Positions 38,433-63,033 of a stretch of DNA of 64,000 nucleotides are shown here, one piece after another (the first letter of the stretch is position 1; each line of letters begins with the position of its first letter). Source of the stretch: Poseidonibacter parvus (GTDB lineage: Bacteria; Campylobacterota; Campylobacteria; Campylobacterales; Arcobacteraceae); assembly GCF_001956695.1 (NCBI RefSeq), contig NZ_CP019070.1:496001-560000 (forward strand), written 5' to 3'. The translations under genes were made by a program, and so were the position numbers. The notes beneath the pieces are model-generated. The model saw nothing but the letters and a program-made list of their open reading frames with translations. It did not search any database and was not told where the DNA came from.

Positions 38433-39134
38433 TTAGCTATTGTTTTTTGCTGCTTTTTCATCTTCAGTTAAGTTAGGGTAACAGAATCTGTAACCTCTTC
38501 TTCTGATAGTTTCAATAGTAGAAATTTGTAATGGTTTATCCATTTTTTGTCTAATTTGATTAATTGCAACTTCAATAACATTTGGAGTTACTAATTCTGG
38601 CTCTTCCCAGATTGCGTCTAATAATTGTTCTTTAGAAACAATTTGATCTCTATGTCTTGCTAAATGAGTTAAAACTTCAAAAGGTTTACCTTTTAATTCT
38701 ATTTCATTTCCTGCATATTCGATTTTTTCTTCATCTGGATTGATAATTAAGTCATCAATTTCAATTACATTAGTTCCACCAAATCTTAATCTAGCTTCAA
38801 TTCTTGCTAATAAAATGTCAAAATCAAAAGGTTTTTTGATGTAGTCATCAGCACCTGATTTTAATGCTTCAATTTCAGATTCTTTATCATCTCTTGCAGA
38901 AATGATAACAACAGCAGTTCTTGAACTTCTATTTTTAACCATTTTACATAATTCAAGCCCATCACCATCTGGTAACATCCAATCTGTTAAAACTAAATCA
39001 TAGTTTCTAATGTCAATAAAGTATTCAGCATCTTTATAGTTTTCTGCAGCATCAACTTGATAACCAAAATCAGTCAAGCCTTCTTGAAGTGTTCTATTTA
39101 AAGTTATTTCATCTTCAATTATTAATATTCTCAT
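38433..39134 (-). CDS. OmpR-family response regulator
   Basis: 233 residues. Receiver domain with the acidic pair IIEDE, the phospho-Asp in DLVLTDWMLPDGDG and Lys in KKPF; winged helix at the end with TIRRRGYRF. It is first in an operon with its kinase. The divergent peb4 gene shares the upstream region, which has TTTTAAG repeats that could be its sites. Confidence 0.93.
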   Translation of the reverse strand: MRILIIEDEITLNRTLQEGLTDFGYQVDAAENYKDAEYFIDIRNYDLVLTDWMLPDGDGLELCKMVKNRSSRTAVVIISARDDKESEIEALKSGADDYIKKPFDFDILLARIEARLRFGGTNVIEIDDLIINPDEEKIEYAGNEIELKGKPFEVLTHLARHRDQIVSKEQLLDAIWEEPELVTPNVIEVAINQIRQKMDKPLQISTIETIRRRGYRFCYPNLTEDEKAAKNNS

Positions 39135-44167: not shown

Positions 44168-44584
44168 TTATAAATCATCTGTTGGTAAAGTTTCAACCCA
44201 TGATCTAATTGACCAAATTGCAGCTGGTGATAATACTTCTCCAAATGGAGGCATATATACATTACCATTTCTAACAGCACCTTCTATAACTTTAGTAACA
44301 AAATATTCATCAATATCATCATCCCCTGCATCTAATGCTCTTAAATCAGGAGCAACACCACCTGAAACTGCACCTAAACCATGACATCTTGCACAGTTAG
44401 TATTATAAGCACCTTTCCCAATTTCTATTGCTTTTTCATTTCCTCTAAATGGATTAACTATTACATCATCTGCAACATTTGCTAAACCTTTAGTTTCTAC
44501 TGAATGTGGTACAACGTCTCCATGACCAAATGCTAATGTAGAAGTAGCTAATGCAACTAATACAACTTTTTTTAAACTTTTCAT
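44168..44584 (-). CDS. pedF: Cytochrome c550, PedF-like
   Basis: 138 residues. Signal peptide (about 1-20), then HGDVVPHSVETKGL and a single heme site CARCH (residues 64-68) followed by GGVAPDLRALD, and a probable distal Met in NVYMPPF. This closely follows PedF/ExaB-type cytochromes that take electrons from PQQ alcohol dehydrogenases in the periplasm. It is the probable electron acceptor of the 51517 enzyme. First gene of a two-gene operon with a GCTAT-box promoter. Confidence 0.87.
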   Translation of the reverse strand: MKSLKKVVLVALATSTLAFGHGDVVPHSVETKGLANVADDVIVNPFRGNEKAIEIGKGAYNTNCARCHGLGAVSGGVAPDLRALDAGDDDIDEYFVTKVIEGAVRNGNVYMPPFGEVLSPAAIWSIRSWVETLPTDDL

Positions 44585-44623: not shown

Positions 44624-44655
44624 AGTATATATTTATTTTATAGCTTGATTATAGC
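44624..44655 (-). promoter_or_regulatory. GCTAT-box promoter of pedF operon
   Basis: On the minus strand GCTAT-AATCAA-GCTAT (44655-44640), then 10 nt, then the -10 hexamer TATACT (44629-44624). The site covers the -35 region. Same geometry at five other promoters of the island. Confidence 0.82.
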
Positions 44656-44676: not shown

Positions 44677-44708
44677 GCTATAATCAGGCTATTTTCTTGC
44701 ATTACAAT
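44677..44708 (+). promoter_or_regulatory. GCTAT-box promoter of the 44733 ABC operon
   Basis: GCTAT-AATCAG-GCTAT (44677-44692), 10 nt, then TACAAT (44703-44708). Facing the pedF promoter in the same divergent region. The predicted transcript start (about 44715) rules out the longer reading frame of the next gene. Confidence 0.82.
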
Positions 44709-47173: not shown

Positions 47174-48322
47174 TTACTTCTTACACGCAACTTGATAAGA
47201 TGCAATACCTAAAGTATCCAAATCATTTGTAGGATGTAAAAAGCCATCTTGAGGTGATGTTGATACTAGTGCATTTGGCTGTACTAGAGCAACTGGCATT
47301 CTAATTTGTCCATTGAAATCTCTATATGTTAATTTTCTTCCTTTATAAGCTCCTAATTCAAAATCTTTTGAATAAATAAAATTTAAAGCAGTTTTCATAT
47401 CATTACTTTTTGTCTTAGTAATACTTGTAACAATTGTTCTAATAGCAATCCAAGCGGCAAAATCTTCATCTTCCATCCATCTTGAAGCAAACTTTTCAAA
47501 CCTTTTTTGCATTTGAGCTGCACCCCATTGTTCAATTACTTTATGCCAGGTTTTAGGCGTTAGTCCTTGTGTTCCAGCAAGTGGTCTTGGAAGCCAAGAA
47601 TTAAAATAAATAAACTCTCCAAAATCTCCATAATTATCTGCTGTTACTATTACATCATAATCCTTAGCTTGTGTAAATACAGGAATCTCATCAGCAGCTT
47701 TTCTTCTAATATCTGCATCATAAGTCCATTGCTTTTCTTCTACAATTTTTGCATTGAACTTTTTTACGGCTCTTTTAATATCTTTTGTAATTTGTAAATC
47801 TTTTTGCTTTGTTCCTGAAATTAAAAAGATATCTTTAAAATCTCTTTTTACCAAAAATTGAACTAATCCATCATATAACATTGCATTTGATGCAATTGTA
47901 TGTAAAAGATTTGTTTGACATAAGTTCTGTCTAAAATCAGAGTTCTTATTTGCAATATTAAAAAATACTGCTTTTTTAAATAAAGGATTATTTATAAGCT
48001 CTTGTAAAAAATCATCTTCAACTTTTAATAAAACAAAAGAGTTTTTCTCATTTATAAATTTTTCAAGTGAAGATAATAAATCTTTTTTATCAAATGAAAT
48101 CTTTTCAATTAAATTATATTTCTGATTTAAAAACCTTGCTGTTTTATTTGAATCTTTTACAGCAATTTTAGCTCCTTGTATTCCTAAATCATCCGGAATT
48201 TTAATTACATTTGATAAAACAGGAGGTCTTTTTATCTTTTGTTCTAAGTATAAGATATTTGTTTCTAGAATATCTGCTTTTATAAATGAAAATAAAAGTG
48301 TCAAAAATAGTACTATTTTCAT
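47174..48322 (-). CDS. PQQ-associated ABC-type binding protein, Leu/Ile/Val-like
   Basis: 382 residues with a signal peptide (about 1-16). It has the periplasmic receptor fold seen in the group of putative ABC binding proteins tied to PQQ alcohol dehydrogenase systems: GIQGAKIAVKDSNKTARFLNQKY, VIVTADNYGDFGEFIYFN, LAGTQGLTPKTWH and YKGRKLTYRDFNGQIRMPVALVQP. It is alone on its strand, divergent from the propeller/ABC operon, and has its own GCTAT-box promoter. Ligand unknown. Confidence 0.8.
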   Translation of the reverse strand: MKIVLFLTLLFSFIKADILETNILYLEQKIKRPPVLSNVIKIPDDLGIQGAKIAVKDSNKTARFLNQKYNLIEKISFDKKDLLSSLEKFINEKNSFVLLKVEDDFLQELINNPLFKKAVFFNIANKNSDFRQNLCQTNLLHTIASNAMLYDGLVQFLVKRDFKDIFLISGTKQKDLQITKDIKRAVKKFNAKIVEEKQWTYDADIRRKAADEIPVFTQAKDYDVIVTADNYGDFGEFIYFNSWLPRPLAGTQGLTPKTWHKVIEQWGAAQMQKRFEKFASRWMEDEDFAAWIAIRTIVTSITKTKSNDMKTALNFIYSKDFELGAYKGRKLTYRDFNGQIRMPVALVQPNALVSTSPQDGFLHPTNDLDTLGIASYQVACKK

Positions 48323-48345: not shown

Positions 48346-48377
48346 AGTATATATTATTTTTATAGCTTCAGTTTAGC
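48346..48377 (-). promoter_or_regulatory. GCTAT-box promoter of the 47174 gene
   Basis: Minus-strand GCTAA-ACTGAA-GCTAT (48377-48362), 10 nt, then TATACT (48351-48346). It forms a back-to-back pair with the site of the 48450 operon. Confidence 0.78.
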
Positions 48378-48389
48378 AAAATATATATT

Positions 48390-48421
48390 GCTAAACTCAG
48401 GCTATAATTATTTACTACACT
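48390..48421 (+). promoter_or_regulatory. GCTAT-box promoter of the 48450 operon
   Basis: GCTAA-ACTCAG-GCTAT (48390-48405), 10 nt, then TACACT (48416-48421). Predicted transcript start about 48428, 22 bases before the first gene. Confidence 0.78.
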
Positions 48422-48449: not shown

Positions 48450-48869
48450 ATGAAAAAAATTGCAATGTTAGTAATGATGGTATTTATAACAGCAGAGTTT
48501 GCAAGTGCAAAGAATTTAAAGGGTTTATTACACTCAAGAACTACATTAGCACCTATTAATATTAGTGCAGGTGAACCATTAGCTACAGAACCTTATAAAT
48601 TAGAAGCAGGTAAGTACTACAAGTTAGTTTTAAAAAGTGATGGTTCAAGAGAAGTTCCAATTGTTGGAGCTGAATTTTTTAGAAATATCTGGGTAAATCA
48701 AGTATCTATTAATGATATTGAAGTAAGACCATTAGGAATTGATAGTTTTGAATTTGATGATGAAGGTGAGATTGAACTTACATTTATTCCAATTAAACCT
48801 GGAACTTTTACTTTAGGTTTACCAACTGCTAAAAGTGATAGAGAAAGAGCTATTATTATAGTTGAATAA
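48450..48869 (+). CDS. Unknown periplasmic beta-rich protein of the PQQ island
   Basis: 139 residues with a signal peptide (MKKIAMLVMMVFITAEFASA). The rest looks like a small beta-sandwich, LEAGKYYKLVLKSDGSREVPIVGAEFFRNIWVNQV and an end FIPIKPGTFTLGLP that recalls cupredoxins, but there is no Cys or His to bind copper. First in an operon with the propeller protein and an ABC transporter. Homologues accompany such systems; function unknown. Confidence 0.65.
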   Translation: MKKIAMLVMMVFITAEFASAKNLKGLLHSRTTLAPINISAGEPLATEPYKLEAGKYYKLVLKSDGSREVPIVGAEFFRNIWVNQVSINDIEVRPLGIDSFEFDDEGEIELTFIPIKPGTFTLGLPTAKSDRERAIIIVE

Positions 48870-51436: not shown

Positions 51437-51468
51437 CCTATATTCAGGCTATATTTCTCATGTATACT
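51437..51468 (+). promoter_or_regulatory. GCTAT-box promoter of the alcohol dehydrogenase
   Basis: CCTAT-ATTCAG-GCTAT (51437-51452, one mismatch in the first half), 10 nt, then TATACT (51463-51468). The spacer TTTCTCATGTA is almost the same as before the aldehyde dehydrogenase (AATCTCATGTA). Confidence 0.82.
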
Positions 51469-51516: not shown

Positions 51517-53283
51517 ATGGGGAAGAGTAAATTTCTTAATAATGTAGCAAAAGTTACATTATCAACATTACTAAGTGCAAGTGCAATAACTGCATTATCA
51601 GCTAATGCAGGTTTTGCACCTGTAACTGATGCAGATATTGCAAATGATGCAAAAACTGTTGAAGATGTAGTAACATATGGTTTAGGTCAAAAAGGTCAAA
51701 GATATTCACCTTTAGATCAAATTAATAAAAAGTCAATCAAAGATTTAGTTCCAGTATGGAATTTTTCATTTGGTGGTGAAAAGCAAAGAGGTCAAGAAGC
51801 GCAACCTTTAGTTAAAGATGGTGTTATGTATGTAACTGCATCTTATTCTAGAATGTATGCTATTGATTTAGCAAGTGGTGAAGAACTATGGCAATATGAT
51901 GCTAGACTTCCTGGTGCTATTTTACCTTGTTGTGATGTTATCAATAGAGGTCCAGCACTATATGAAAACTTAGTAATTTTTGGAACATTAGATGCAAAAC
52001 TTGTTGCACTTGATAGAAAAACTGGAAAAGTTAAATGGAAGAAGAAAATAGCTAACTATAAAGATGGTTATTCTTATACAGCAGCTCCTTTAATTGTAAA
52101 AGGTTTATTAATTACAGGAAATTCTGGTGGTGAGTTTGGTGTTGTTGGACAATTAGATGCAAGAAACCCATTAACAGGTGAACTTGTATGGACTAGACCA
52201 ATGGTTGAAGGACATATGGGAACATTAAATGGTAAAGATAATGGAATCACAGGTCAAACAAATGCAACATGGCCAGCTGATTTATGGAAACATGGTGGTG
52301 CTGCTCCTTGGAATGGTGTAACTTATGATCCTGATGCTGATTTAATTTATGTTCCAACAGGAAATCCATCTCCATGGAATTCACATGATAGACCGGGTGA
52401 TAACCTTTATTCTGCTTCAAGAGTAGCAATTAATCCAGATACAGGAAAAATTGTTTGGCATTTCCAAACAACTCCAAATGATGGTTGGGATTATGATGGT
52501 ATTTCTGAACTAGTTGCTTTTGAATATAAAGATAAAGCAGGTAAAACAATTAAAGCAGGAGCAACAGCTGATAAAAATGGTTTCTTCTATGTATTAGATA
52601 GAGTTACAGGTAAATATATCAGATCAGTACCTTTTGTAGAAAATATAACATGGGCAAAAGGAATGGATAAAGACGGTCGTCCAATAGTAAATGAAGATAA
52701 TAGACCTGGAAAACCAAGTGCTGATAAAAAAGGTAAAACTGTTTACTCAACACCTTCATTCTTAGGTGGTAAAAACTGGAATCCAATGGCTTATTCACAA
52801 GATACTGGATTATTCTATGTTCCTGCAAATGAGTGGGGAATGGATATTTGGAATAAACCTGTTGCATATAAAAAAGGTGCTGCTTATTTAGGTGCTGGAT
52901 TTACAATTAAACCAACATTTGAAGATCACATTGGTGCTTTAAAAGCAGTTGATCCTAAAACTGGTGAGATTAAATGGACTTATAAAAATAAAGCTCCATT
53001 ATGGGGTGGTGTTTTAACTACTGCTGGTGGACTTGTATTTACAGGAAATCCTGAAGGTAAGTTAATGGCATTTGATGACCAAACTGGTGAAATTGTTTGG
53101 CAATTTAATGTTGGTACTGGTATTGTAGGTTCTCCAATTACTTGGAGTACAGATGGTGTTCAATATATCGCTGTAGTTGCAGGTTGGGGTGGAGCTGTTC
53201 CTTTATGGGGTGGTGAAGTTGCAAAAACTGTTAAGTATTTAAACCAAGGTGGATCAGTTCACGTGTTTAAATTACACAAATAA
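51517..53283 (+). CDS. PQQ-dependent alcohol dehydrogenase, lanthanide-type signature
   Basis: 588 residues. Signal peptide (cleavage near residue 30), then an eight-bladed PQQ propeller with tryptophan-docking repeats and no heme domain, so a type I quinoprotein. The adjacent Cys138-Cys139 form the ring disulfide over PQQ. Metal ligands Glu206 (GGEFG) and Asn283 (TGNPSPWN) are present, and the catalytic Asp325 is followed by Asp327 in GWDYDGISE. Asp at that place marks lanthanide-dependent enzymes (XoxF, ExaF, PedH); calcium enzymes have Ala, Ser or Thr there. It oxidises primary alcohols in the periplasm and passes electrons to cytochrome c, here probably the PedF-like protein. pqqA follows after 36 nt with no terminator. 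Ethanol or longer alcohols are the likely substrates, but the exact range is open. Confidence 0.92.
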
Positions 53284-53499: not shown

Positions 53500-54417
53500 T
53501 TGAAAATTCAAGTTTTAGGCTCTGGTGCAGGAGGAGGTCTTCCTCAATTTAATTGTAACTGTGATAATTGTAAAGCATATAGAGCAGGTTCAAAAACAGT
53601 AAAAAGAAGAACTCAAAGTTCTATTACAGTTAGTGAAGATGGTGTTAATTGGGTTTTATTTAATACTTCACCAGATATTTTAGAGCAAATACATAATTCT
53701 CCTTTTTTACATCCTTCAGAATTAAGAGAAACAAAAATAAAAGCTATTATTTTTAATGATGGACAAATTGACCATACAACTGGGCTTTTAATGTTACGTG
53801 AAGGCTGTCCTCATGAGGTATACTGTACAAAAGAAGTAAATGAAGAACTATCAACATCTTTCCCATTGTTTAAAATGCTTGAGCATTGGGGTGGAGGTGG
53901 TACAAAATGGAATGAAATTCTTCCAGATAGCACAACAAAGTTTGAAATACCTGTGATGCCTTCTTATGAATTTTATGCACATGCATTAATTTCAAATGCA
54001 CCACCATATTCAAAATATCGAGATATACCTAGAAAAGGTGATAATATTGGAATTACTGTAGTAAATAAAAATACTGGAAAAAGATTATTTTATCTTCCTG
54101 GACTTGGAGTTTTAGAAGACCATGTTTTCGAAGAAATGAAAAAAGCAGATGTCTTACTAATAGAAGGAACTCTTTGGACAAATGATGAAATGATTAAAGG
54201 TAAGTTCTCAAACAAACTTGGAACAGATATGGGACATATTCCTTTAAATGGAGAGCATGGTTTGATTAAAGTTTTAGATACTTTAGAAAAACCAAGAAAA
54301 ATATTAATTCATATTAATAATACAAATCCTATTTTAGATGAAGCAAATGATGAATATAAAGAGCTTATCTCACATGGAATTGAAGTTTCATATGATGGTA
54401 TGAGTATTGAAATTTAA
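53500..54417 (+). CDS. pqqB: PQQ biosynthesis protein PqqB
   Basis: 305 residues from a TTG start with AAAGGA upstream. Metallo-beta-lactamase fold: [18 protein letters not shown] near the start with the extra zinc Cys, [32 protein letters not shown] and [10 protein letters not shown]. It oxidises (hydroxylates) the peptide-derived Tyr during PQQ synthesis. First of four tightly linked genes pqqBCDE. Confidence 0.95.
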
Positions 54418-54434
54418 AGATAAAGGAAATAAAT

Positions 54435-55175
54435 ATGAGTGAATTATTAAGTAAAGAAGATTTTGAAAAAAAACTAAAAGATATGGGATCAATGTATCAT
54501 ATTCATCATCCTTTTCATGTAAGAATGTATGAGGGGTCTTGTACTAAAGAAGAGATACAAGGTTGGGTTGCTAATAGATTTTATTACCAATGTGCAATTC
54601 CAATAAAAGATGCTGCTATTATGTCAAATAATCCTCCTATTGAAGATAGAAGAAAATGGGTTGATAGAATACTAGATCATGATAGTGTTGGTGGTGGAAT
54701 TGAAGCTTGGCTTGATTTAGGAGTTGCAGTTGGTTTAAAAAAAGAAGATTTAGAATCTCATAAATTTGTATTACCAGCTGTTAAATTTGCAGTTGATGCT
54801 TATGTTAATTTTGCAAGAAGAAGTCCATGGAAAGAAGCTGCAATGTCATCTTTAACTGAAATGTTTGCACCTCAAATTCATCAACAAAGATTAGACACTT
54901 GGCCTAAAAATTATCCTTGGATAGAACAAAATGGTTTAAGATATTTTCAAAAAAGATTAAGTGAAGCTAGACGTGATGTTCAACATGGTCTTTCAATGAC
55001 TTTAGTTGAATTTGACACAGTAGAGTTACAAAATAGAGCTTGTGAAATACTACAGTTTAAATTAGATATTCTATGGACAATGTGTGATGCTTTATATTTA
55101 GCATATGAATTAAAAAGACCACCATATTTTAATATTAAGGATTGTAATGCAACTAGAAAAATCACTTGCAATTAA
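54435..55175 (+). CDS. pqqC: Pyrroloquinoline-quinone synthase PqqC
   Basis: 246 residues, all-helical. [42 protein letters not shown], and [14 protein letters not shown] carry the active-site His, Arg and Tyr. It closes the ring and carries out the final eight-electron oxidation to PQQ without a metal. Overlaps pqqD by 29 bases. Confidence 0.96.
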
Positions 55176-55416
55176 TGCGCACTTTCAATTACAATGGGAA
55201 GAAAAACAAAATTGTTTCGTATTATTATATCCAGAAGGAATGGTTCAATTAAGCCAAAGTGCTGGTGAGATTATGAATTTATGTAATGGAGAAAATACAA
55301 CTTTAAATATTACAGATTTACTAGAAAAAAAATTTAATTTAGTTGGTTTACAAAGTGATATTATAGAGTTTTTAGAAGACGCAATGAATAGAAAGTGGGT
55401 AATTTATAATGACTAA
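55147..55416 (+). CDS. pqqD: PqqA-binding chaperone PqqD
   Basis: 89 residues, the usual PqqD length. [21 protein letters not shown] is the conserved core. It holds PqqA and presents it to PqqE. The gene overlaps pqqC (29 bases) and pqqE (8 bases), so translation of the three is coupled. Confidence 0.92.
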
Positions 55417-56509
55417 TGAAATAAAACCTCCGTTATGGATACTTTTGGAATTAACACATAAATGTCCTTTAGAATGTTCATACTGTTATAACCAATTAGA
55501 TTTTACAAATACAAAAGATGCTATGAGTAAAGCTGATTGGTTTAGAGTTATGGATGAAGCAAGAGATATGGGTGCTGTTCAGCTTGGAATTTCTGGTGGA
55601 GAGCCACTTTTAAATAAAGACTTAGTTGAAATTGTAGAGTATGCAAATAATAAAAAGTTTTATACAAACCTTATTACTTCTGGTGTTGGTGCTCCAAAAG
55701 GAATTGTAAAAAAGCTAAAAGAAGCAGGACTTAAAACTGTGCAATTAGGTATTCAATCTCATGATAGAAATACTATGACATTGATTACTAATAATAAAAA
55801 TTCATATGATGAAAAAATTGCCTTTGCCAAAGAAGTTAAAGAAGCAGGGCTTCAACTTATAATTAATACTTGTATAACAAGACAAAATATTCATCAAGTA
55901 GGTGAAATTATTGAGTTTGCAGATGAACTTGAAGGAAACTATTTAGAAATTGCAAATATTCAATATTATGGATGGGCATTAAAAAATATAAATGCACTTC
56001 TTCCAACACAAGAGCAGTTAGATGAAGCAAAAAGAGTAACAGATTCTTACAGAAGTAAAGAAAAAGCTATGAAAGTATTTTTTGTAGTTCCTGATTATTT
56101 TGCAGATCGTCCAAAAGCATGTATGAATGGATGGGGAACAACTTTCTTAACTATTAATCCAGACGGTGTTGCACTTCCATGTAATACAGCAAATACTTTA
56201 CCATTAGAGTTTCCAAATGTAAAAGAGTTTTCAATTGAACAAATTTGGAATGAATCTCATGCTTTCAATTATTTCAGAGGTGATAGCTGGATGAATCCAA
56301 CATGTGCCTCATGTGATGAAAAAGAGAAAGATTTTGGAGGGTGTCGATGTCAAGCCTTTGCACTTACAGGCGATATGAATGAAGCTGATCCTGTTTGTTC
56401 AAAATCTGATTTTCATCATGTAGTTACTGATAAAGTTGCTGAAAGTTTGGGTACTACAGATGCAAAGATATGGTACAGAAATAGAAAAAATTCACTATTA
56501 CTTTCTTAG
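55409..56509 (+). CDS. pqqE: PqqA peptide cyclase PqqE (radical SAM)
   Basis: 366 residues. Radical SAM motif CPLECSYC (Cys19, 23, 26), GISGGEPLLN, and a SPASM region with CMNGWGTTFLTINPDGVALPC and CASCDEKEKDFGGCRCQAF holding two more Fe-S clusters. It links Glu16 and Tyr20 of PqqA by a carbon-carbon bond. A terminator follows. No pqqF-type protease gene is seen in the window; peptide trimming must use a protein coded elsewhere. Confidence 0.96.
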   Translation: MTNEIKPPLWILLELTHKCPLECSYCYNQLDFTNTKDAMSKADWFRVMDEARDMGAVQLGISGGEPLLNKDLVEIVEYANNKKFYTNLITSGVGAPKGIVKKLKEAGLKTVQLGIQSHDRNTMTLITNNKNSYDEKIAFAKEVKEAGLQLIINTCITRQNIHQVGEIIEFADELEGNYLEIANIQYYGWALKNINALLPTQEQLDEAKRVTDSYRSKEKAMKVFFVVPDYFADRPKACMNGWGTTFLTINPDGVALPCNTANTLPLEFPNVKEFSIEQIWNESHAFNYFRGDSWMNPTCASCDEKEKDFGGCRCQAFALTGDMNEADPVCSKSDFHHVVTDKVAESLGTTDAKIWYRNRKNSLLLS

Positions 56510-57241: not shown

Positions 57242-57366
57242 AATAATCCTACTTGTAAAACTTAAGCACCATTGTATTGATTTTTTTAAATTAGTTCTTC
57301 TTATTTATTGCTATAATAATGTTCTATTTGTGCTAATTTATTGGTTTGTTTGTGTTAAAATATATT

Positions 57367-58242
57367 ATGAAAAAAGAAACTCTAGAAAAAAGAACAAAAA
57401 TTGCTAATGATATTTTGTACTATATTTATACTCACATTGAAATACATATTGATTTAGAAGAGCTTAGTATTGATTTAAAGGTAAGCAAATTTCATATGCA
57501 CCGTATTTTTAAAGAGGTATTTGGACGAAATATTTATGAAAGTATTAAATCAATTAGATTACAAAAAGCATCAAATCTACTTTTAACAAATAAATACTCA
57601 ACAATTTCTAATGTAGCAAATATGTGTGGCTATTCATCTCAATCCTCTTTTATAAAAATTTTTAAAGATAGATTTGAACAAACTCCTAAACAGTGGAGAA
57701 AAGGTGGATATAAAGAATACTCAAATAAAATTTTAGAACAACTTGAAATTGCCAAAAATTCAACAGCAGACTTTTCAAATGTAAAGCCTGATATTGTAAA
57801 AATGCCAGCGATGAAAAGCTACTATATAAGAAACAAAGGTTATACATCCAATATCAAAGAAACTTGGCAAAAACTTAAAACTTGGGTTTTAATAAATGAA
57901 ATTAAAGATTATAAACAAATCGCACTTTTTCATGATAATCCTACTATCACACCTCTAGATGATTGTCAATATATAGCTTGTATAGTTCCAAGCAATGATG
58001 AGAAAATAAATAGTGATAGACTTCCTTCTTTTAATATAGCTTCAGGTGTTTATGCAAAATTTGATTTGCAAGGTAAGCAAGGAGATGTTTTAAAATTCAT
58101 TCATTGGGTTTATCATGAATGGCTTCCAAAAAGTGAGTATGAAACAACAACAAAACCATCTTATACTGTTTATAGAAAGAATAATCATTTAAATAATTCA
58201 AATGAATTTGACATTAGTTTTTATGTTTCTATTAATTTTTAG
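57367..58242 (+). CDS. AraC-family regulator with GyrI-like effector domain
   Basis: 291 residues. Two helix-turn-helix motifs at the N terminus (about 10-110: IDLEELSIDLKVSKFHMHRIFKEVFG and NVANMCGYSSQSSFIKIFKDRFEQTPKQWRK), then a GyrI-like/effector-binding domain (about 135-290: DIVKMPAMKSYYIRNKGYTSNIKETWQKL, ASGVYAKFDLQG). This order is that of Rob/SoxS-like multidrug-sensing regulators. The ATG at 57367 lacks a clear ribosome site. Targets are not visible. Confidence 0.88.
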   Translation: MKKETLEKRTKIANDILYYIYTHIEIHIDLEELSIDLKVSKFHMHRIFKEVFGRNIYESIKSIRLQKASNLLLTNKYSTISNVANMCGYSSQSSFIKIFKDRFEQTPKQWRKGGYKEYSNKILEQLEIAKNSTADFSNVKPDIVKMPAMKSYYIRNKGYTSNIKETWQKLKTWVLINEIKDYKQIALFHDNPTITPLDDCQYIACIVPSNDEKINSDRLPSFNIASGVYAKFDLQGKQGDVLKFIHWVYHEWLPKSEYETTTKPSYTVYRKNNHLNNSNEFDISFYVSINF

Positions 58243-58267: not shown

Positions 58268-58287
58268 AAAGACCTAATTAGGTCTTT
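58268..58287 (-). terminator. Terminator of the FIST kinase/regulator operon
   Basis: Perfect 8-bp stem AAAGACCT (58268-58275) with AGGTCTTT (58280-58287) and a 4-nt loop, overlapping the end of the regulator gene. On the minus strand TTTTTATCTTTATTT follows. Confidence 0.78.
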
Positions 58288-58933
58288 CTACCATATAGCC
58301 ACTTCCTCTAATATTTTTAATAAAATCTTCTTTTAAAACTTTTTTTACTCTATTTACTTCTGCTCTTATTGTTGCATTATCTATAAAGTCATCATTCCAT
58401 ACATAGTTTCTAAACATATCATATTGAACAACTAAAGATCTATTATGTGCTAGTAACTCAATAATTTGTATTTGTCTTTTTGGTAGAATATGAGGTTCAT
58501 TATTAAACAATAAAGTCATAGTTTCTGAATCATAAGAATAATTCTTTGATAGTCTTTTATGTCGTTGAGGAACAATAGTTGTTTTTAAAATCTTGTTTAT
58601 TCTAATAGTTAACTCTTTTAAATGAAATGGTTTTTTCAAATAATCATGACAGCCAATATCAAAGGCTCTTGAAATATCTTCAATTTCAATAAGTGCTGAT
58701 ATATAAATTGTTGGAATCATTCTTTTTTGTTCATGTAAACTTTCTAATATTGTAAAACCATTAATATCAGGTAAGTTAATATCTAAGATTAACAAGTCAA
58801 ATTTTTCTTCACTTAAAGTTTGTATACACTCTTTTCCTGTAGTTGCACTTTTTACAACATGTCCTGTTGAGCCTAAGTATTCACTTATCATCTCATTTAA
58901 CATTACGTCATCTTCTAATAGTAATATTTTCAT
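58274..58933 (-). CDS. OmpR-family response regulator of the PQQ island
   Basis: 219 residues. Receiver domain with LLEDD, phospho-Asp51 in LLILDINLPDING and Lys in KKPFHL; a winged helix of the OmpR/PhoB type (about 125-219) with QIQIIELLAHN, IRAEVNRVKKVLKE and IRGSGYMVE. It overlaps the FIST kinase gene by 4 bases. PhoB-type proteins bind direct repeats spaced 11 bp just upstream of the -10, which is exactly the form of the GCTAT boxes here, so it is the prime candidate to bind them. That link is inference. Confidence 0.9.
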   Translation of the reverse strand: MKILLLEDDVMLNEMISEYLGSTGHVVKSATTGKECIQTLSEEKFDLLILDINLPDINGFTILESLHEQKRMIPTIYISALIEIEDISRAFDIGCHDYLKKPFHLKELTIRINKILKTTIVPQRHKRLSKNYSYDSETMTLLFNNEPHILPKRQIQIIELLAHNRSLVVQYDMFRNYVWNDDFIDNATIRAEVNRVKKVLKEDFIKNIRGSGYMVERPN

Positions 58934-60843
58934 TTTATTTCCTTAAATATATATGTAAATGATGCCCAGTTTTCACCTGACTCTAGTTGTATACCAACAT
59001 TTTCTTCACTACAAATTCTTTTTACTAGATTTAACCCAAGTCCAAAACCTTCTTGGTCACTTATTTGTTCTCTATAATACTCTTCAAATATTTTTTGTTG
59101 ATCTAGTATTTGCTTTGAACGACTTTCAATTACTAAATAACAATCTTGGTTTAAAACATTCATTTTTACTTTTATTGTTTCATTTGGTAGTGAATATTTA
59201 ATTGCATTTGTAAGGTTATTATCTACAATTCTTTGAAGTTTAATTTCATTAAAGTTTAATAGTATTATTTTTCTTTGCGATGAGAAGTCAAAATTACATT
59301 TAAATTTTATTGCAGATTGTGAGAAGAAATCAATTCTTGATCTTACAAAATCAACAAGGTTTATTTCATGTGTTGCTTCATTGACTTGATTTTTTTTAAT
59401 TAAATAGCTTAAGTCATCATATATACTTGAAATATTTTTCATAGCAACTTCAATATTCGTCATATGTTTATTTTTACCACTTTCCATTTCATACATTTCA
59501 ATATTCCCCATAATAATTGATAAAGGAGTATTTGTTTCATGAACTGCATGTTTTAGAAATTGTTTTTGAGAATCTACTAGATTTTGCGCATAAATCTTTC
59601 CTTCTTCTAGTTCTTTTGATTGTTCATTATAATCTTTTGATGATTGTTGTATTAAATGAGTCAAGGCTTGTAAACTTCTCGCATGTTCACTTATTGGCTG
59701 ATTTGATGTTTGAATATCACATGATATTTTTTTATTTGTATCATTAATTTTCTCACTTAAAGCAACAATAGTAAATGTTTGATTTAGTAATTCATTATGT
59801 CCATTATCATGATAAAACTCTCCATAAGTAAAGAAACCTGAAGTAGGGGCGATTTGTGAAAAAGGCTTTATTTCAATTTCAACCATACTTGGCATATATC
59901 TTCTTCTTGCCATACATGAGTAAATGAAAAAAGATTGAGTGTCTTTTATATTACATGTATCAAATAATGACTCTAAGGGATTACTCATGATAAGTTCTAC
60001 ATTACCAAAACCTAATTTTACATTATCTCCTTCATATAAATTACCTGCAAAACTAAGACTTCCATCTTTGTGTTTATTTATAACAGCACGTGCTACTGGT
60101 AAACCATTTCTATGTGCAATTAATGGAAATTCAATTCCAGTAGCTGGAAGTGCTTTTGCTACATACTCTCCTAAATACTTTTCATAAAAGTCTAAAGGTT
60201 TCATTCCTGATATTTGATACACTCTATTATCTTTAACTTTATCAATAGTATGTTCTATTCCAATTGGTGACCAATTAAAATTGTAAGCATTACAAACTTT
60301 TAATGTTTTGGAGTTTAAAGCAACTCCTACTGCACCATTTATAATAACTTCACCTTGTGAAGAAACAAAGGTTTGTGTAAAGTTTGCATTATCACCTGCC
60401 ATTCCTCCTGAAACTATTACCTTATTATTTACAGATTGAATACCTTTTATAAAAGCTTCACCATTTGTCTTTGCACCATCAGAAAATGTAATAAGAAGTT
60501 TAGTATCTTCTTTGCATAACTTTTGAGCTAATTCAACACCATTTGTAAAAGAGTCTTTTTTTCTTACAAAAGTTGTTTCTAATGTAGTGTTTTCAAATAT
60601 TGAAATAGAAATAATTGTATGGCAAGTTGTTACTTTACTATTATTAATTTCTCCATCAGTAGATGAACCTATACAAATAGCTTGTGGAAGTTTTTCTAAT
60701 AATTGTGTTGCAATTACTTTTAATACATTTTTATTGTGTCCGCAAAAAATTTGTATTAGAATGTTTTTTTCTTTTTTTAATAATGAAAAGTCTATTAATA
60801 TATCTAAGTCTTCTTCATTATATGTATAGTTAAATGTTTTCAT
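58930..60843 (-). CDS. FIST-domain sensor histidine kinase
   Basis: About 637 residues, no membrane helix, so cytoplasmic. FIST N domain (about 25-215: AICIGSSTDGEI, LLITFSDGAKTNGEAFIKGI, VSGGMAGDNANF), FIST C domain (about 215-355: FYEKYLGEYVAKALPATGIEFPLI, FFIYSCMARRRYM), a coiled linker, then the His in KHAVHETNTPLSIIMGN and an ATPase domain with NNLTNAIKYSLP and GFGLGLNLVKR. FIST domains are thought to bind small ligands. FIST kinases (ErcS'-like) govern ethanol oxidation in Pseudomonas. The start is uncertain: 60858 is five codons longer; a TACAAT just upstream of 60843 hints at a leaderless start. Confidence 0.85.
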   Translation of the reverse strand: MKTFNYTYNEEDLDILIDFSLLKKEKNILIQIFCGHNKNVLKVIATQLLEKLPQAICIGSSTDGEINNSKVTTCHTIISISIFENTTLETTFVRKKDSFTNGVELAQKLCKEDTKLLITFSDGAKTNGEAFIKGIQSVNNKVIVSGGMAGDNANFTQTFVSSQGEVIINGAVGVALNSKTLKVCNAYNFNWSPIGIEHTIDKVKDNRVYQISGMKPLDFYEKYLGEYVAKALPATGIEFPLIAHRNGLPVARAVINKHKDGSLSFAGNLYEGDNVKLGFGNVELIMSNPLESLFDTCNIKDTQSFFIYSCMARRRYMPSMVEIEIKPFSQIAPTSGFFTYGEFYHDNGHNELLNQTFTIVALSEKINDTNKKISCDIQTSNQPISEHARSLQALTHLIQQSSKDYNEQSKELEEGKIYAQNLVDSQKQFLKHAVHETNTPLSIIMGNIEMYEMESGKNKHMTNIEVAMKNISSIYDDLSYLIKKNQVNEATHEINLVDFVRSRIDFFSQSAIKFKCNFDFSSQRKIILLNFNEIKLQRIVDNNLTNAIKYSLPNETIKVKMNVLNQDCYLVIESRSKQILDQQKIFEEYYREQISDQEGFGLGLNLVKRICSEENVGIQLESGENWASFTYIFKEIK

Positions 60844-60934
60844 AAAATATTGTATCATATATATTGAAAAATTAGAAGAAAAAAATCGTGTTAAAAGTAC
60901 CTAAAATTGGGAAATTGTAACAAAAAAACGCAGC

Positions 60935-60988
60935 GCTATATTCAAGCTATACAATAGCTATAATTAGGCTATAAATCTCATGTAGAAT
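60935..60988 (+). promoter_or_regulatory. Double GCTAT-box promoter of the aldehyde dehydrogenase
   Basis: Four GCTAT half sites at 60935, 60946, 60957 and 60968, each exactly 11 bp apart, so two full boxes (60935-60950 and 60957-60972). After 10 nt comes TAGAAT (60983-60988). The spacer AATCTCATGTA matches that before the alcohol dehydrogenase. Confidence 0.85.
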
Positions 60989-61060: not shown

Positions 61061-62557
61061 ATGGCATACGCTAAACCTCAATATAAAGAACAATTTGAAA
61101 ATTTCATCGGTGGAGAATGGGTTGCACCATTAAGTGGAGAATATTTTGATAATATCTCACCTGTAGATGGAGAAGTTCTTACAAGAATTCCAAGATCAAA
61201 TGAAGCTGATGTAGATGCAGCAGTTGCAGCTGGTATGGTTGCTTTTGAATCATTCAAGCATTCTACAGTAATTGAAAGATCAACTATGTTAAATAAAATT
61301 GCAGATGCAATTGAAGAAAACTTAGAAGCTTTAGCAATTGCTGAAACTTTAGATAATGGTAAAGCAGTAAGAGAAACACTTGCAGCTGATGTACCTTTAG
61401 TTGTTGATCACTTTAGATATTTTGCATCTGTTATTAGAGGTGAATCTGGTGATGTTTCTGACTTAGACGAAAATACAATTTCTCAAGAAATTCATGAGCC
61501 TTTAGGTGTTGTTGCTCAAATTATTCCATGGAACTTCCCATTATTAATGGCAGCTTGGAAAATTGCACCAGCATTAGCAGCAGGAAATGCAGTTGTATTA
61601 AAGCCAGCATCAGCGACTCCAATGTCAATTTTAATGTTAATGGAAACAATTCAAGAAGTTCTTCCAAAAGGTCTTGTTAATATTATTAATGGTGCTGGTG
61701 GAAAAATTGGTAAGCATTTATCAACTCATCCAGATATCAAAAAAGTTGGATTTACAGGAGAAACTACAACTGGTCAATTAATTATGCAGTATGCAACTGA
61801 GAATATTATTCCTTCTACATTAGAACTTGGTGGTAAATCGCCAAATATTTTCTTAGAATCAATTATGGATAAAGATGATGAATTCTTCGATAAAGCAATC
61901 GAAGGTTTAGTATTATTCGCATTTAACTCAGGTGAAGTTTGTACAGCACCAACTAGAGCATTAATTCAAGAATCAATTTATGAGCCATTTATGAAAAGAT
62001 GTTTAGAAAGAATTGAAGCAATTACACAAGAAAACCCATTAGATCCAACTACTAAAATGGGTGCACAGTGTTCAGTTTCACAAAAAGAGAAAATTCTTTC
62101 TTATATTAAAATTGGTAAAGATGAAGGTGCTGAGTGTTTAATTGGTGGTGAAGCTTATGATAATAAAACTTTCCCTAATGGAAACTATATCAAGCCTACA
62201 ATCTTTAAAGGTCATAACAAAATGAGAATCTTCCAAGAAGAAATTTTTGGACCAGTTTTAGCAGTAACTACTTTTAAAACAGAAGAAGAAGCACTTGAAA
62301 TTGCAAATGACACTATCTACGGATTAGGTTCAGGAGTATGGTCAAGAGATGCTCACCAATTACATAAATTCTCAAGAGGAATTGAAGCTGGTAGAGTTTG
62401 GGTAAATTGTTACCACATGTACCCATCTCATGCATCATTTGGTGGATATAAAAAATCAGGAATCGGAAGAGAAACTCACATGATGATGTTAAACTCTTAC
62501 AGACACACAAAAAATATCTTAACATCTTACTCAAAAGATGCTATGGGATTCTTCTAG
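61061..62557 (+). CDS. NAD-dependent aldehyde dehydrogenase, ExaC/AldB type
   Basis: 498 residues. Motifs: IIPWNFPLLMAAWKIAPALAAGN for NAD binding, GFTGETTTG, catalytic Glu255 in TLELGGKSPN and catalytic Cys294 in NSGEVCTAPTR. The stretch between them is 39 residues, longer than in ALDH2 and typical of ExaC/AldB. It oxidises the aldehyde from the PQQ enzyme to the acid in the cytoplasm. The DUF779 gene that follows is the usual partner of this subfamily. Its promoter has the strongest GCTAT-box array in the window. Confidence 0.93.
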   Translation: MAYAKPQYKEQFENFIGGEWVAPLSGEYFDNISPVDGEVLTRIPRSNEADVDAAVAAGMVAFESFKHSTVIERSTMLNKIADAIEENLEALAIAETLDNGKAVRETLAADVPLVVDHFRYFASVIRGESGDVSDLDENTISQEIHEPLGVVAQIIPWNFPLLMAAWKIAPALAAGNAVVLKPASATPMSILMLMETIQEVLPKGLVNIINGAGGKIGKHLSTHPDIKKVGFTGETTTGQLIMQYATENIIPSTLELGGKSPNIFLESIMDKDDEFFDKAIEGLVLFAFNSGEVCTAPTRALIQESIYEPFMKRCLERIEAITQENPLDPTTKMGAQCSVSQKEKILSYIKIGKDEGAECLIGGEAYDNKTFPNGNYIKPTIFKGHNKMRIFQEEIFGPVLAVTTFKTEEEALEIANDTIYGLGSGVWSRDAHQLHKFSRGIEAGRVWVNCYHMYPSHASFGGYKKSGIGRETHMMMLNSYRHTKNILTSYSKDAMGFF

Positions 62558-62652: not shown

Positions 62653-63033
62653 ATGAGTATAGAAAGAGTAGCTATAACTCCTGCAGCAGCAGATGTAGTT
62701 GAAAGATTAAAAAAAGAAAATGGCGAGTTAGTATTTAACCAAAGTGGCGGTTGCTGTGATGGAACAGCTCCTATGTGTTATGCTAAAAGTGATTTTTATG
62801 TTCCAAGTAGAAATGTTAAGTTAGGTGAAGTATGTGGAGTTGAGTTTTTTATTGATAAAGACCAGTTTGAATACTTTAGACATTCTCATATTACTATTGA
62901 TGTTAAAGAAGAAAAGGGTGCTTTTGGTAATTCTTTTTCTCTAGAGATTGATTTAGGTTATCAGTTTATTACCGTTTCACGGATTTTTACTGATGAAGAA
63001 TATAATCAGTTAAGCCCTGAAGAGAAAAAATAG
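62653..63033 (+). CDS. DUF779 family protein
   Basis: 126 residues. QSGGCCDGTAPMCY, with three Cys, is the mark of this family, which is found next to acetaldehyde dehydrogenases in many bacteria. The Cys set suggests metal or thiol chemistry, perhaps sensing or buffering aldehyde, but no function is established. The start has AAAGGA upstream. Confidence 0.85.
   Translation: MSIERVAITPAAADVVERLKKENGELVFNQSGGCCDGTAPMCYAKSDFYVPSRNVKLGEVCGVEFFIDKDQFEYFRHSHITIDVKEEKGAFGNSFSLEIDLGYQFITVSRIFTDEEYNQLSPEEKK

Follow-up and report, generated by a model that had tools for sequence, protein, structure and literature searches.

Two tandem GCTAT boxes upstream of an aldehyde dehydrogenase gene of Poseidonibacter parvus as a putative operator of the adjacent FIST kinase/OmpR-type system

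Genes and GCTAT array at the locus

The window, a stretch of 64,000 nucleotides (positions 496001-560000) of the single-contig genome of Poseidonibacter parvus (2,866,429 bases), contains an array of the pentamer GCTAT between divergently oriented genes. To the right of the array, an ExaC-like aldehyde dehydrogenase (ALDH; 61061..62557, +) and a DUF779 protein (62653..63033, +) are encoded. ExaC is the best model for this ALDH, yet the protein does not reach the curated equivalog score (813.9 bits versus a cut-off of 900 bits). To the left, the genes for a sensor kinase of 642 amino acids with FIST_N, FIST_C, HisKA, and HATPase domains (58930..60858, −) and for an OmpR/PhoB-family response regulator of 219 amino acids (58274..58933, −) are located. 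This regulator, which combines a receiver with a winged-helix domain (Trans_reg_C), is the proposed binding protein of the array. With the NosP model, the kinase scores 62.3 bits, below the curated cut-off of 450. Close relatives include P. lekithochrous and P. ostreae, in both of which named contigs encode the neighbouring kinase with 86% identity. Further to the left, a cluster encodes a PQQ-dependent alcohol dehydrogenase (ADH; TIGR03075), a PQQ-associated beta-propeller protein (TIGR03866), and an ABC binding protein (TIGR03863), all scoring above the respective cut-offs, together with a cytochrome c. The genes at 53500-56509 are presumably the PQQ-synthesis genes pqqB, pqqC, and pqqE, as read from their proteins.

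The kinase gene probably starts at 60843 (MKTFNYT), and a −10-like element, TGATACAAT, ends about 5 bp ahead of this ATG (60843-60860, −). Similar elements (TGCTACAAT or TGTTACAAT) precede the kinase ATG in many relatives, which suggests that the kinase mRNA is leaderless. A second pair of FIST kinase and regulator is encoded elsewhere in the genome (L130, 2515852-2517759), the kinase being 52% identical; the first 600 bp upstream of this second kinase gene contain no GCTAT pair.

On the + strand, exact GCTAT pentamers start at 60935, 60946, 60957, and 60968, which confirms the original prediction of four half sites phased at exactly 11 bp. CTATA is present at all four units, and one more exact GCTAT, the fifth, is found on the − strand (60954-60958), off the 11-bp register. 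The pentamer itself is not enriched in the window (106 occurrences observed versus 118 expected), and 11 bp is the only spacing present among same-strand pairs 5-19 bp apart (44677+, 44655−, 60935+, 60946+, and 60957+). A chance repeat was set aside as the origin of the array after the window had been simulated 300 times with a first-order Markov model: no simulation produced an array of at least three GCTATs with any constant period of 6-25 bp, compared with one four-unit array in the real window. After a gap of 4 bp, the array is followed by the −10 hexamer TAGAAT (60983..60988, +), which is preceded by TG and begins 15 bp past the start of the last GCTAT; the region originally predicted, which ended at 60988, closes with the last base of this conserved hexamer.

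Conservation and architecture of the array in Arcobacteraceae

ALDH orthologs were sought in 104 Arcobacteraceae genomes and found in 73, with one upstream region read per genome. One genome (G083), in which the match begins at residue 39 and the preceding DNA resembles another gene, was excluded, leaving 72; in another (G367), which has two ALDH fragments, the 5′ fragment alone was counted. A strict rule allowed at most one mismatch per pair of half sites. Orthologs of the FIST kinase are present in 59 of the 72 genomes, and in 55 the kinase start is divergent from the ALDH gene and adjoins it on one contig. With G366, which was counted as kinase-adjacent though its kinase and ALDH genes sit at two contig ends, two pairs were found in 50 of 56 kinase-adjacent genomes (with 11 bp between the pairs in 45 and 12 bp in five) and one pair in six. 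Two pairs are also present in G343, which is outside the 56 and has a contig edge nearby. Two boxes thus precede the ALDH gene in 51 of the 59 genomes with a kinase ortholog, and the other eight promoters have one strict pair, some of them being kinase-adjacent (G342, G351, G358, and G359). The conservation of the outer pair in relatives, on which the original prediction was made to depend, is borne out by this count. In two genomes with the kinase encoded elsewhere (G322 and G323), only the proximal pair is kept.

None of the 13 genomes with the ALDH but without a FIST kinase ortholog has two boxes at the ALDH promoter, and two of them (G027 and G300) have one degenerate pair each. The association between the kinase and two boxes has a Fisher p value of 3e-9, uncorrected for relatedness. 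All 13 genomes belong to one genus (g2), other members of which keep both kinase and array, and the absence may represent one or a few losses. Lone or degenerate GCTATs ahead of a −10-like hexamer were observed at the ALDH genes of G234, G304, G027, and G300, which have no kinase ortholog, and are perhaps remnants. In A. butzleri, the ALDH operon AB0376-0377 is reported to be under the control of ECF sigma-2 (PMC3445524).

From its sequence pattern, the array is better read as two tandem boxes of 22 bp (A-B, A-B) than as four equal sites. The distal box in the window consists of units A1 and B1 (60935..60956, +; GCTATATTCAA GCTATACAATA) and the proximal box of units A2 and B2 (60957..60978, +; GCTATAATTAG GCTATAAATCT); a matrix trained on other genera scores them with 22.8 and 19.4 bits, respectively. 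The units were compared in the 53 relatives that show four halves if each half is allowed one mismatch. Positions 8-10 of units 1, 2, 3, and 4 read TCA in 37, 7, 32, and 0 of these relatives, respectively. Exact GCTAT is found in the first, second, and fourth half in 51, 49, and 51 relatives, and the third half is GCTAA in 32, GCTAT in 16, and GCTTT in five. This alternation of TCA by unit and the different third half indicate an array of two dimer boxes with a period of 22 bp, and four equal monomer sites were rejected on account of the same alternation. The spacing within pairs is 11 bp; that between pairs is 11 bp in 48 relatives and 12 bp in five. Mean information in the 48 genomes with 11-bp spacing is highest in the halves (1.91 bits per base), lower in the spacers (0.73), and lowest in the upstream flank (0.44). 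Regarding the cooperative binding of two dimers that had been proposed originally, the presence of two tandem dimer sites appears well supported by the A-B-A-B alternation, the 11-versus-12-bp spacing, and the conservation of both pairs; cooperation between the dimers belongs to the mechanism proposed below.

In 57 of the 61 upstream regions with a pair, the distance from the start of the second half to that of the best −10-like hexamer is 15 bp. Among the four exceptions, G334 and G243 still have a hexamer at this position, and in G290 and G333 a different half served as the anchor. A repeat spacing of about 11 bp, a location at the −35 region, as judged from the −10 hexamer at the fixed offset of 15, and a nearby gene for a regulator with receiver and winged-helix domains are all properties of direct-repeat operators of the OmpR/PhoB family.

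A second pair that arose by tandem duplication and has no effect on output is very improbable. Duplication seems to be easy, as one relative (G270) carries five units, and relatives with single-pair promoters exist; however, the two pairs of the 51 genomes have kept their A-B asymmetry and register over many genera, and a second pair is never found at the ADH promoter.

A function of the distal box mainly in autoregulation of the divergent kinase-regulator operon, and not in ALDH expression, is unlikely, although it has several observations in its favour. The array lies within the divergent intergenic region, the first pair is located 89-93 bp from codon 6 of the kinase gene in many relatives, and the proximal pair alone remains in G322 and G323, in which the kinase is not adjacent. 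A precedent is PceP, which acts on two divergent start sites from a position 85 bp upstream of them that is probably occupied by more than one dimer (PMC7755780). In contrast, every unit of the array faces the ALDH gene, and the spacing to the ALDH −10 hexamer is fixed at 15 bp, whereas the distance from the first pair to codon 6 of the kinase gene varies between 57 and 129 bp in 55 genomes, in some of which an additional pair closer to the kinase counts as the first. Furthermore, the kinase-adjacent loci of other families and of the four kinase-adjacent genomes named above have a single pair. The roles for ALDH and kinase are compatible, and the distal box may act on the kinase operon as well. 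The ALDH upstream regions of G225, G342, G344, G337, and G338 contain an extra pair, for example GCTATTTTATTGCTAT, at a distance of about 50 bp from the start of the kinase gene, which is a possible autoregulatory site.

Single boxes in the alcohol-oxidation cluster and in other families

The matrix trained without the genus of the window found six promoters, all in the cluster at 44-61 kb and all with a −10 hexamer at offset 15. Matches above 16 bits are located at 48390+, 60935+, 44677+, 51437+, 60957+, 48356−, 60946+, and 44634−, the one at 60946+ being the overlap of the two array boxes, and the next-best match in the window has 14.1 bits (6988−). In 20 simulated windows, the maxima ranged from 8.7 to 20.3 bits with a mean of 0.3 matches above 15 bits; one match of 16-20 bits would thus decide little by itself, whereas the finding of six promoters in the same pathway is decisive.

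The five promoters other than that of ALDH share the layout with one box each. The PQQ-ADH gene (51517-53283) is preceded by a box at 51437..51458 (+; CCTATATTCAG GCTATATTTCT) with the −10 hexamer TATACT at 51463. Boxes recognized by the matrix and the −10 offset precede the operon at 48450 with the beta-propeller and ABC genes (48390..48411, +) and, on the opposite strand, the gene for the PQQ-ADH-associated ABC binding protein (47174-48322; box at 48356..48377, −). Exact pairs that were also found by the matrix precede the genes for an SsuA-like binding protein and ABC proteins beginning at 44697 (44677..44698, +, with the −10 offset) and the cytochrome c gene (44168-44584; box at 44634..44655, −). 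The latter promoter has a degenerate third half, TCTAT, in register on the − strand, and the overlapping pair at 44645 scores 10 bits. The original claim that no other promoter of the window has more than two sites therefore holds for exact GCTAT but not if one mismatch is allowed.

Genome-wide, a pattern that was drawn after seeing the sites of the window, and is descriptive only, has eight matches, six of which are in the cluster. For the match at genome position 363550, no correctly oriented gene was found within the 3-kb locus. At L190 (genome 177271-177287, −), the site GCTAATCTTAA GCTATATTCAT with TATACT at offset 15 lies ahead of a gene with NosR as the best model (267.7 bits, below the cut-off of 1000) and is a candidate for a further target.

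PQQ-ADH genes were found in 30 of the 104 family genomes, and the strict rule detects a pair at 27 of these 30 promoters. The pair is more degenerate in G323 and G334, and the promoter of G351 is cut by a contig end and unreadable; ADH-like second copies in G362, G360, and G290 are outside this count. A second in-register pair was found at none of the 30 PQQ-ADH promoters examined. Judged from these promoter sequences, one box for ADH versus two for ALDH is a conserved contrast. No PQQ-ADH was detected in 30 of the 51 two-box genomes, some of these assemblies being incomplete. The ALDH circuit thus appears to be the core to which the alcohol cluster was added, and a tie of the array to PQQ-dependent alcohol oxidation itself was set aside for the same reason.

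Full-length orthologs of the FIST kinase with about 50-54% identity were found in the families f20, f7, and f8 among 298 genomes of the order searched. At 30 FIST kinase loci outside the Arcobacteraceae (L146-L175), a pair within 600 bp faces away from the kinase gene in 20 cases and toward it in one. Sixteen of these 20 loci belong to f20, three have the pair ahead of an ALDH gene, and one (L166) lies at a contig end. In the two f20 loci checked, the gene behind the pair encodes a molybdopterin-dependent aldehyde oxidoreductase that scores above the curated cut-off. No pair was found by the same rule at ten of the 30 loci, including L156, L171, and L174 with an ALDH gene nearby; the sequences of L163 and L166 break off at contig ends. 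As one pair is the rule outside the family, four sites are not essential. The C-terminal recognition stretch of the regulator (around DNATIRAEVNR) is alike in most of the regulators compared across these families.

An alternative is binding of the array by another regulator, either the AraC-type protein encoded at 57346-58242 or the other OmpR-type regulator encoded at 38433-39134. This is improbable. Both genes are located within 23 kb of the array, and the AraC-type gene is near in four of ten named relatives (L225, L226, L228, and L230). However, it is absent from the stretches of the other six, some of which end soon after the regulator, and 11-bp direct repeats against a −10 hexamer are typical of OmpR-family regulators. 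The AraC-type protein was set aside as the binder because its gene was not found at any of the 31 loci L146-L176, many of which have pairs.

GCTAT arrays were also observed beside other genes. In G260 (L010, C1:546189-546226), a four-site array precedes an XdhC-domain gene, with the ALDH gene about 20 kb away; the best NCBIfam model for the XdhC-domain gene, an aldehyde-oxidoreductase maturation factor, is far below its cut-off. In G272 (L009, C22:90620-90679), which has its ALDH gene at a distance of about 25 kb, six GCTATs in 11-bp register precede a putative porin gene. Four GCTATs in 11-bp register are present in G120 (L011, C10:185381-185418), a genome without a matched ALDH ortholog, and the genes downstream are presumably a DUF485-ActP operon, as named from reading. 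Arrays of this kind, such as that of G120, indicate that related regulators may read similar GCTAT sites.

Proposed regulation and comparison with known systems

Comparison between the genomes brings out the boxes, their register, the position of the −10 hexamer, the linkage to the kinase, and the contrast between one and two boxes. The best explanation as a whole, which we regard as quite probable, is that the four GCTATs are two tandem operator boxes for the adjacent OmpR/PhoB-family regulator, the partner of the FIST kinase. Each box would be an asymmetric direct repeat of 11-bp units, A (approximately GCTAWANTCAN) and B (approximately GCTATANNTNT), that accommodates one head-to-tail regulator dimer. 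The proximal box, whose B unit begins exactly 15 bp ahead of the −10 hexamer, would stand in for the −35 element and activate the ALDH promoter. A second dimer, bound in phase farther upstream at the distal box, would stabilize the first. PhoB is a model for class-II-type activation; activation by the regulator proposed here would be class-II-like, with the second in-phase box adding a cooperating dimer. The single boxes would place the alcohol-oxidation cluster under the same regulator. We infer that binding and phosphorylation of this regulator, cooperativity, and a ligand are involved and that ALDH output would be higher or more sensitive.

FIST domains are regarded as sensory. An aldehyde or a close relative would be the likeliest signal, because the kinase/regulator pair is linked with two unrelated kinds of aldehyde-oxidising enzymes across families and because the ALDH boxes persist where a PQQ-ADH is not detected. 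A more speculative and rather doubtful extension is that the FIST-kinase/OmpR-type system of Campylobacterales senses aldehyde and that the number of boxes sets the order of induction. If so, the two-box ALDH promoter would be switched on at lower regulator phosphorylation than the one-box promoter of the aldehyde-producing alcohol dehydrogenase, and operator copy number would encode a detoxify-first programme. The natural pair of one-box and two-box promoters suits a direct test of how the number of operators affects the order of induction. The comparison defines a sharp operator grammar for a sensor-regulator pair, conserved as two 11-bp units, 4 bp, and the −10 hexamer, and in several families it ties kinases with a FIST domain to the oxidation of aldehydes.

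The combination of a FIST domain with a histidine kinase is shared with NosP/NahK of Pseudomonas, a FIST protein with an ErcS-type kinase that is linked with alcohol oxidation. Here, in contrast, FIST and kinase domains are fused in one protein, which scores far below the NosP cut-off. Among the open-licence papers searched, neither a FIST-kinase/ALDH regulon in Arcobacteraceae nor the conserved one-box/two-box contrast was found described.

The closest precedent is PceP (RR2/TCS2) of Sulfurospirillum, an OmpR-family regulator of a related bacterium with CTATW repeats. CTATA repeats with 6-nt gaps, and thus in 11-bp register, overlap the −35 region, sites have the form CTATW-N17-CTATW, and the divergent site, 85 bp from both start sites, probably holds more than one dimer (PMC7755780). 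CTATW is present at all four units of the window, the third unit being GCTAA in 32 of the 53 relatives. The authors pair repeats 17 bp apart and assign the middle repeat to sigma-70, whereas the recurring unit here is the 11-bp pair, and single boxes consist of two halves with 6 bp between them. Furthermore, the PceP regulon concerns tetrachloroethene respiration, in contrast to aldehyde and alcohol oxidation. The tandem boxes of PhoB and PhoP (pho box) share head-to-tail direct repeats of 11 bp and differ in half site and signal; for PhoP of M. tuberculosis, binding is tighter to three or four consecutive repeats than to two (PMC4832192). The sites of ArcA, a global redox regulator with another half site, comprise two to five 11-bp direct repeats, three to five being common, and some are proposed to be cooperative enough to resemble on-off switches (PMC3798270). 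In the light of PhoP, ArcA, and PceP, stronger or more sensitive induction by two boxes, as suggested by the original prediction, is plausible. The type of site is already known from these systems, and the array of P. parvus is another example of it, with a candidate regulon.
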